NCBI RefSeq assembly: GCF_004121075.1
Contig: NZ_RHLN01000003.1
Coordinates: 62,001-126,000 of the forward strand
DNA from: Lutibacter sp. HS1-25
GTDB taxonomy: Bacteria > Bacteroidota > Bacteroidia > Flavobacteriales > Flavobacteriaceae
DNA: 64,000 nucleotides
Reading direction: 5' to 3'
Shown: positions 48,270-49,813 of the stretch, one piece after another
Numbering within the stretch: the stretch's first letter is position 1
How the letters are laid out: the number at the start of each line of letters is the position of its first letter
The notes under the pieces: model-generated
What the model saw: the letters and a program-made list of their open reading frames with translations, nothing else
Told to the model about the DNA's origin: nothing
The model's database searches: none
Position numbers and translations under genes: made by a program

Positions 48270-48299
48270 TTGCTTGTATTTATTTTGTTTGTATCTTTG
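48270..48299 (+). promoter_or_regulatory. Promoter of rpsU
   Basis: TTG (48270-48272), 19 nt, TATCTTTG (48292-48299). The -7 box is identical to that of the tRNA-Lys promoter at 13309. The expected leader before the ATG is about 40 nt. Confidence 0.8.
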
Positions 48300-48328
48300 C
48301 AATCCAAAAAATAAAAGAGAACAATTTG

Positions 48329-48338
48329 AAAGGAGGTG
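48329..48338 (+). promoter_or_regulatory. Perfect Shine-Dalgarno of rpsU
   Basis: AAAGGAGGTG is a ten-base match to the 16S anti-Shine-Dalgarno and ends 7 nt before the rpsU ATG. Other genes in this window have no such site. In Flavobacterium johnsoniae, S21 with S18 and S6 covers the anti-SD, and rpsU keeps a strong SD as an autoregulatory sensor; this site fits that model. Confidence 0.93.
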
Positions 48339-48345
48339 CTAAAAT

Positions 48346-48543
48346 ATGTTAATCATACCAGTTAAAGACGGAGAAAATATTGATAGAGCGTTAAAACGTT
48401 ACAAAAGAAAATTTGATCGTACGAAGACAATGAAAAATTTGCGTAACCGTAAGCAATTCAATAAACCTTCAGTTGAAAACCGCGCACAAATTATAAAAGC
48501 TCGATATGTTCAAAAATTAAGAACAGCAGAAGAGCAAGGTTAA
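48346..48543 (+). CDS. rpsU: 30S ribosomal protein S21
   Basis: Small-subunit platform protein bS21, 65 residues: MLIIPVKDGENIDRALKRYKRKFDRTKTMKNLRNRKQF, with the basic helix typical of the family. In Bacteroidota it occludes the anti-Shine-Dalgarno end of 16S rRNA. It is preceded by its own promoter and a strong SD, and followed by a hairpin that precedes xerC, so it can be expressed separately from the downstream xerC-hpf genes. Confidence 0.97.
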   Translation: MLIIPVKDGENIDRALKRYKRKFDRTKTMKNLRNRKQFNKPSVENRAQIIKARYVQKLRTAEEQG

Positions 48544-48562: not shown

Positions 48563-48619
48563 AAACCGTTAGTTAAAACAAATTACAATTTGTATGTTTG
48601 TTTACTAACGGTTTTTTTT
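48563..48619 (+). terminator. Terminator/attenuator between rpsU and xerC
   Basis: Outer arms AAACCGTTAGT and ACTAACGGTTT (11 bp, perfect) enclose a 30-nt loop with a smaller inner stem (ACAAAT/ATTTGT), followed by five T. The T-run ends on the base before the xerC ATG. Probably partial termination that lowers xerC-hpf relative to rpsU. Confidence 0.8.
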
Positions 48620-49507
48620 ATGCCTATAAATGCCTTTATAAATTATATTTCGCTCGAAAAAAAATATTCGTTACATACTGTGACGGCCTATAAAAACGAT
48701 TTGATTTCTTTTCAGGAATTTTGTGTTTCAGAATTTGAAAGTGATGATATTGTAAATGCAAATTATTCTCAAATTAGAAGTTGGATAGTTGTTTTAGTAA
48801 ATTCAGATATTTCAAATCGAAGTATAAACAGAAAAATATCTTCGTTAAAATCGTTCTACAAGTTTCTTCAAAAGACAAAACAATTAGATTTAAACCCACT
48901 AACAAAACATAAAGCTTTAAAAGTGGCAAAAAGAGTTCAGGTTCCTTTTTCTGAAAAAGAGATTGAAAGTGTTTTAAATTTAAATATGGAAAATACTGAT
49001 TTTGAATCTGTAAGAGATAAGTTGATTGTGGAATTGTTATATTCAACAGGTATGCGTAGAAGTGAATTGGTAAATTTAAGATTAAATGATATAGATAGAA
49101 GTAATGGTGTAGTAAAGGTCTTAGGAAAAAGAAATAAAGAGCGCTATATTCCATTGTTAAAATCTGTATTAGACTCATTAGCAATATATCACGAGTTTAG
49201 AGGTGTTATTGAGTCTGATCAATCATATTTATTTGTTACAAAACATGGTAAAAAAATATACGATACACTTGTATATCGTATAATAAATAATTATTTTAGT
49301 ACTGTGTCGTTGAAGGTAAAGAAAAGCCCACATGTAATAAGGCATTCTTTTGCAACACATTTATTAAATGAAGGTGCTGATCTAAACGCTGTAAAAGAAT
49401 TGCTTGGGCATTCTAGTTTGGCGTCAACACAAGTATATACCCATAGTAGTTTGGGTAAGTTAAAGGAAGTGTATAATCTAGCTCACCCAAGGAGCGATAA
49501 AAACTAA
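48620..49507 (+). CDS. xerC: Tyrosine recombinase XerC/XerD family
   Basis: Site-specific recombinase of the Xer type that resolves chromosome dimers at dif. From ATG 48620 it is 295 residues, the usual Xer length (a longer frame from TTG 48590 would begin within the terminator). The N-terminal SAM-like DNA-binding domain (ISLEKKYSLHTVTAYKNDL...RKISSLKSFYKFL) is followed by the catalytic domain with Arg in STGMRRSELVNLRL, Lys in VLGKRNKERYIPL, His-x-x-Arg in PHVIRHSFATHLL, His in LGHSSLASTQ and the nucleophilic Tyr in VYTH. Housekeeping length and context argue against a phage integrase. The C or D assignment is not certain. Confidence 0.88.
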   Translation: MPINAFINYISLEKKYSLHTVTAYKNDLISFQEFCVSEFESDDIVNANYSQIRSWIVVLVNSDISNRSINRKISSLKSFYKFLQKTKQLDLNPLTKHKALKVAKRVQVPFSEKEIESVLNLNMENTDFESVRDKLIVELLYSTGMRRSELVNLRLNDIDRSNGVVKVLGKRNKERYIPLLKSVLDSLAIYHEFRGVIESDQSYLFVTKHGKKIYDTLVYRIINNYFSTVSLKVKKSPHVIRHSFATHLLNEGADLNAVKELLGHSSLASTQVYTHSSLGKLKEVYNLAHPRSDKN

Positions 49508-49513
49508 ATTATT

Positions 49514-49813
49514 ATGAAAGTAAATTTGCAATGTGTAAATTTTAATGTAGACAAGGGGCTTGTTGAGTTTGTTGAAAAGAAATTATCTGCTTTAGATAAG
49601 TATTATGATAAAATTGTAGATGCAGAAGTGTATCTTAAAGTACAGCAAACAAGTGAAAAAGAAAACAAACTTATTGATGTAAAATTAAATGTACCTGGTA
49701 ACGATTTTGTTGTAAAAAAACAATGTAAAACCTTTGAAGAAGGTATTTTGTTGGCTGCAGATTCCTTGAAAAGGCAATTGGCAAAAAAGAAAGAAAAAGT
49801 AAGAGAAAAATAA
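49514..49813 (+). CDS. hpf: Ribosome hibernation-promoting factor, short form (HPF/RaiA)
   Basis: A 99-residue ribosome-associated factor that binds the decoding centre in stationary phase. It has family features in the N-terminal beta strand VNLQCVNFNVDKGLVEFVEKKLSALDKYYDKI, AEVYLKV, and the C-terminal helix ADSLKRQLAKKKEK. It lacks the C-terminal dimerisation domain of long HPF. It is 6 nt downstream of xerC and likely cotranscribed with it and rpsU, an arrangement that groups two ribosome-binding proteins in one locus. Confidence 0.93.
   Translation: MKVNLQCVNFNVDKGLVEFVEKKLSALDKYYDKIVDAEVYLKVQQTSEKENKLIDVKLNVPGNDFVVKKQCKTFEEGILLAADSLKRQLAKKKEKVREK

Follow-up and report, generated by a model that had tools for sequence, protein, structure and literature searches.

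The rpsU gene of Lutibacter sp. HS1-25, which encodes ribosomal protein bS21 (S21), is preceded by an extended Shine-Dalgarno (SD) sequence, and we consider it very probable that this gene forms the translational autoregulation unit of the Flavobacteriales, the feedback being carried over from work on Flavobacterium johnsoniae. The extended SD, GAAAGGAGGTG, lies at positions 48,328 to 48,338 on the forward strand of the window, by which we mean the whole 64,000-nucleotide stretch of DNA that was analyzed, and the S21 ATG follows at 48,346. An earlier note on this DNA described a ten-base perfect SD at a spacing of 7 nt from the S21 start. Both the decamer (AAAGGAGGTG, 48,329 to 48,338) and the spacing are exact, and the complementarity was slightly understated, as G 48,328 pairs with the C of ...CACCUCCUUUC and lengthens the match by one to 11 contiguous pairs. 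No 16S rRNA gene was found in the draft of the window's genome. Two of 24 congeners (G011 and G024) contain a full 16S gene, both of which terminate in GGAACACCTCCTTTCT with the canonical CCUCC core, and the 11 pairs form with the 16S tail of these two congeners, ACACCUCCUUUCU. The earlier note had made its reading depend on a 16S 3′ end that pairs with the site, and the tails of G011 and G024 do so, a result that applies to congener tails only. The duplex between the rpsU leader and the tail taken from the two congeners has a predicted energy of −19.9 kcal/mol (RNAduplex). This value lies beyond the −13 kcal/mol criterion of PMC9976891, where free_scan was used, so that the thresholds compare only roughly.

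These features match the interpretation of McNutt et al. (2023; PMC9976891), and the rpsU site is thus an instance of an already known system, whose regulation would extend to the window's organism. The model that the earlier note had applied to this gene, in which S21, S18, and S6 hide the anti-SD of the 16S rRNA, is published there and was shown in F. johnsoniae. Ribosomes of that species lacking S21 favor rpsU; wild-type ribosomes make little protein from an rpsU′-gfp fusion, S21-mutant ribosomes make 3- to 5-fold more, and the exchange of Tyr54 for Ala raised expression of the fusion threefold. According to the same study, rpsU is typically the sole strong-SD gene in Flavobacteriales, and ≈80% of Flavobacteriales satisfy both criteria used there. 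By analogy with F. johnsoniae, S21, S18, and S6 on complete 30S subunits would form a pocket that holds the 16S 3′ tail, SD pairing would be blocked, and ordinary mRNAs would initiate without an SD. In S21-free subunits, the free tail would form 11 bp with the rpsU leader, which would let S21 synthesis start fast, and the newly made S21 would fill these subunits and close the feedback loop. The model behind bS21 autoregulation in F. johnsoniae reportedly goes back to Jha et al. 2021. We infer the pocket, the tail release, and the feedback from the F. johnsoniae publications. The DNA itself shows a complementary site that is conserved and exceptional within the gene set examined, as well as the required proteins and a layout suited to a one-gene transcript. 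This system is a documented example of specialized bacterial ribosomes, and the window's rpsU is a further, well-supported case of it.

To place the site within its genome, we used 335 other genes from the window and a 400-kb sample (464 kb of the 4.18-Mb genome, covering part of the ribosomal protein genes). The set comprises non-overlapping ATG-started open reading frames of at least 100 codons with the first ATG taken as the start, a rule that misplaces some starts, such as that of rpoB in the window; the S21 gene itself falls below the length limit. None of the 335 genes has a site of −10 kcal/mol or stronger, and the rpsU SD is by far the strongest among the genes examined. Strong SD sites are rarer before gene starts than in mock positions of the sample, with sites at −6 kcal/mol or below in five of 335 start regions versus 22 of 335 mock regions (Fisher p = 0.0012). 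Genome-wide, the pattern GGAGG-N3-10-ATG occurs 324 times, compared with 326 times for the reversed control, and there is therefore no genome-wide SD signal. The earlier note had named many similar SDs elsewhere in the genome as the finding that would speak against it, and neither the 335 genes nor the motif count revealed them. Its statement that tuf, secE, and rpoC have SD-poor leaders holds as well: tuf (−0.5 kcal/mol) and secE (−0.1 kcal/mol) were computed singly, as were rplK (−0.7 kcal/mol) and rplJ (−0.8 kcal/mol), and rpoC belongs to the set of 335. The runner-up among the 335 genes, a moderate exception to SD avoidance at −9.4 kcal/mol, precedes a gene that we take to be rplI from its sequence. 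This gene (L202; minus strand, start 9145 in G000:C14) directly follows rpsF and rpsR, the genes for S6 and S18, which encode proteins that help hide the anti-SD.

In many bacteria initiation is enhanced by a strong SD, and the site could in principle be an ordinary SD that lets normal ribosomes make much S21, without any feedback. We consider this reading improbable, however, as tuf, rplK, and rplJ do without an SD at the energies given above, though high expression is expected of them, and as strong sites are depleted before starts in the sample; the 3- to 5-fold greater yield of rpsU′-gfp product from S21-mutant than from wild-type ribosomes in F. johnsoniae (PMC9976891) also argues against it. 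That the site is a chance purine-rich decamer is scarcely credible. The exact decamer occurs 11 times in the 4.18-Mb genome, close to the 10 occurrences of the reversed control pattern, as chance would predict, but ten of the 11 copies were judged from open frames and starts to have no plausible gene start downstream, and the rpsU copy is the sole exception. The presence of an equivalent site 7 to 10 nt from the start in relatives likewise speaks against chance. Of 60,000 random 17-mers from the sampled genome, a single one reached −17 kcal/mol, the minimum being −17.2 kcal/mol, compared with −19.9 kcal/mol for rpsU.

The comparison of rpsU leaders that the earlier note had proposed shows the SD to be conserved in close relatives. 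We compared 81 leaders, from the window and from the 80 named relatives nearest to it (the 80 best-scoring of 577 matches). When one 16S tail is assumed for all, 80 of the 81 pair at −13 kcal/mol or below; the exception, L102, is at −11.4 kcal/mol. GGAGG stands 9 nt from the start in 66 of the 81 leaders, 7 nt in nine, and 10 nt in six. Across these leaders we counted 41 letter differences within the 11-mer. In 31 of them an A opposite U is replaced by G, which preserves a G·U pair, and in none is an A replaced by C or T. The tally is by sequence rather than by event and is uncorrected for shared descent; it favors preserved pairing. All 15 congener rpsU genes that were read, in a search of 15 of the 24 congeners, are at −19.9 or −20.0 kcal/mol, and a further 30 family genes, chosen non-randomly as the 30 best Pfam scorers, are all at −17.4 kcal/mol or below. 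In seven genomes (G092, G152, G156, G066, G112, G051, and G116), the SD runs into an ATG that lies 8 nt before the rpsU start in a different frame; the G128 leader has the same overlap with one base changed.

The elements around the site form a predicted compact unit on the forward strand. Promoters of Bacteroidetes follow a consensus of TTG or TTTG at −33 and TAnnTTTG at −7. A −7 element that fits this consensus, TATCTTTG, is located at 48,292 to 48,299, and a possible −33 TTG lies 19 nt before it at 48,270 to 48,272. In 80 of the 81 leaders, TAnnTTTG is found at varying distance in the 120 nt that precede rpsU, whereas the stretch from 120 to 240 nt upstream contains it in five of 81; a scan for sigma-70-type promoters was uninformative, with one site versus 2.8 expected. 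The predicted 5′ leader, with a putative transcription start, is short (48,305 to 48,345) and has no stable structure. It is followed by rpsU itself (48,346 to 48,543), which encodes a 65-residue bS21 with Tyr54 present (Pfam PF01165, E = 1.1e-15; best PDB match 7jil_z). Downstream, a likely intrinsic terminator (48,563 to 48,619) combines a long stem-loop at 48,563 to 48,614 with a U run and ends at the start of the next gene; its fold is −21 kcal/mol (z = −4.45), and none of 200 shuffles was as good. A consensus terminator scan, whose loop limit is 3 to 8 nt, found none. The next two genes encode a xerC-like tyrosine recombinase (48,620 to 49,507; PF00589 and PF02899) and a hpf/raiA-like ribosome hibernation factor (49,514 to 49,813; PF02482), and neither has an SD by leader energy (−2.9 and −1.9 kcal/mol, respectively). 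Of 20 genera checked, 19 have genes similar to these two near the SD-bearing rpsU copy, and in the window both follow rpsU. The earlier claim of a compact unit thus agrees with a promoter motif, a short leader, an SD, and a terminator fold that are all predicted from sequence, and the layout looks monocistronic.

Other ribosomal proteins commonly repress their own synthesis, and S21 might accordingly act as a classical autorepressor that binds a structured leader, with the SD likeness secondary. We regard this as very improbable. The RNA fold of 48,305 to 48,375 is no better than shuffles (z = 0.97), and on this basis a folded leader element was rejected; what relatives retain of the leader is the stretch complementary to the 16S tail, and this stretch changes along with the 16S tail in one genome outside the family, G028.

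The proteins that the anti-SD-hiding system needs are those of F. johnsoniae in type. The best PDB matches of S21, S18, and S6 are chains of the F. johnsoniae ribosome structure 7jil (E = 1.3e-22, 2.6e-51, and 3.5e-56, respectively), with S18 aligned over 98 of 98 residues and S6 over 110 of 115, and by whole-chain PDB match the platform-pocket proteins S21 (with Tyr54), S18, and S6 are of the Bacteroidia type. The nearest S21 proteins in named genomes belong to Lutibacter, at 94% identity, and the genomes treated here as members of the same family are called Flavobacteriaceae on the basis of this match. At the level of sequence, the fit to the model that the earlier note had claimed extends to the long SD, SD avoidance in the sample, the congener anti-SD, Tyr54, and the S18/S6 type. 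The window shares with bS21 autoregulation in F. johnsoniae an rpsU that apparently stands alone, a predicted short leader, and predicted pairing beyond −13 kcal/mol (PMC9976891), as well as an otherwise SD-poor genome, an S21 with Tyr54, and S18 and S6 of the same type (PMC9976891). The leader, read here from sequence alone, is predicted at ≈40 nt compared with 25 nt in F. johnsoniae, and 11 pairs compare with up to 13 reported elsewhere (PMC9976891). In Chryseobacterium-type Flavobacteriales, the SD of rpsU covaries with the 16S tail, so that leader and tail of one organism match (PMC9976891, PMC8710568), as the window's leader matches the congener tail. The window's congeners, however, keep the canonical CCUCC core, and the altered-tail case in our data is G028.

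Beyond the family, the extended SD of rpsU is often missing. We searched 15 genomes of other Flavobacteriales, of which 14 had an S21 match and seven of these 14 a known 16S tail. A strong site is present in two of the 14, G030 (−21.4 kcal/mol) and G028 (−14.6 kcal/mol with its own tail), and a moderate one in G033 (−9.9 kcal/mol, start uncertain) and G037 (−8.3 kcal/mol); the site is absent in the other ten (−2.3 kcal/mol or weaker, with tails known for seven of the 14). The 16S tail of G028 reads ACAUCUCAUUUUA, and its rpsU leader carries the matching AAAATGAGATGT, which pairs at only −4.5 kcal/mol with the Lutibacter tail. Three further genomes with altered tails, G026, G035, and G039 (16S loci L128, L127, and L130), have no matching site before rpsU, and compensation between altered tail and leader is therefore seen for one of four altered tails.

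A side result of these searches matters more, in our view, than the confirmed rpsU site. The window's genome has one S21 gene, while seven of 15 congeners searched have two, and of 149 family genomes, drawn almost entirely from different genera, 57 have at least two (the alignment query gives 55). We read the S21 copies in 38 multi-copy genomes, namely the seven congeners (L172 to L178) and 31 of the 57, a non-random choice that left out 26. The 31 comprise 20 genomes with both places shown (L268 to L307, 20 genera), every genome with three matches (five, of which one already belongs to the 20), and a further seven with two matches. The three-match genomes and these seven (L336 to L364) cover 12 genera, one of them in common with the 20. 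Exactly one copy bears an SD in all 38 genomes, at −17.2 to −20.7 kcal/mol, and the remaining 43 copies have none (−5.5 kcal/mol or weaker). In a tree of 78 S21 rows, 27 of the SD-less copies form one clade with branch support of 100/99; this tree rests on 64 columns, resolves little else, has a bootstrap that is not fully settled, and leaves out the 16 SD-less copies read later. All 27 SD-less copies in the tree have Tyr54, as do 13 of the 16 read later.

Several S21 versions per genome are also known from Francisella tularensis, as in the window's relatives (PMC9578407; PMC9976891). The present case differs in that the window's genome has one S21 and that the extra Flavobacteriaceae copies are distinguished by the missing SD. 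Bacteroidota are absent from the lineages that PMC9976891 lists with S21 paralogs; the paralog section of PMC3353972 names no Bacteroidota S21 duplicates, and its supplementary File S3 may hold some. The titles and abstracts searched contained no report of a second S21 in Bacteroidota, which is not proof of its being unpublished.

In eight of the 20 genera (L278, L280, L284, L288, L298, L301, L302, and L306), the SD-less gene lies on the same strand behind a gene for a 287-residue RpoD-like sigma factor, with a gap that measures 28 to 35 nt in seven genera and 211 nt in the eighth. The order is reversed in L305, where the sigma gene is downstream, and no RpoD-like gene adjoins the SD-less S21 in the other 11 of the 20. 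The sigma query scored best against the RpoD and RpoS models, yet under every RpoD cut-off, and we call it RpoD-like only. It is a second copy, as the eight genomes carry another that is 77 to 78% identical to the query; in G083 and G075, where the SD-less S21 has no adjoining sigma gene, a second sigma match appears only at E = 1e-30. In all seven congeners, the SD-less S21 is followed by a GNAT-like gene, for which NCBIfam gave no name above its cut-off and a weak rimI-like score, and in five of them a symporter gene comes next.

What deserves further attention is the set of SD-less S21 copies, some of which lie beside a second sigma gene, and any function for them is a proposal only. With low confidence, we suggest that in much of the Flavobacteriaceae an old SD-less S21 (S21-B) might supply S21 outside the feedback loop. 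S21-B, with Tyr54 kept, no SD, and a position partly behind a second sigma gene, would fill S21-free subunits, the anti-SD would be hidden, and rpsU would be silenced. Cells could then swap ribosome type together with promoter choice, and the window's lineage would have retained only the self-regulated copy. The presence of one SD-bearing S21 in each of the 38 multi-copy genomes offers a natural test of the purpose of the SD and of S21 exchange as a switch.

Some of the later SD-less copies, from three-copy genomes, look more diverged. Copies of a third type, with neither Tyr54 nor an SD, are found at L357, L362 (G048), and L364 (G054). A light look at phages as a source of the extra copies revealed S21 relatives in six phage records, at 61% identity or less over the aligned part.
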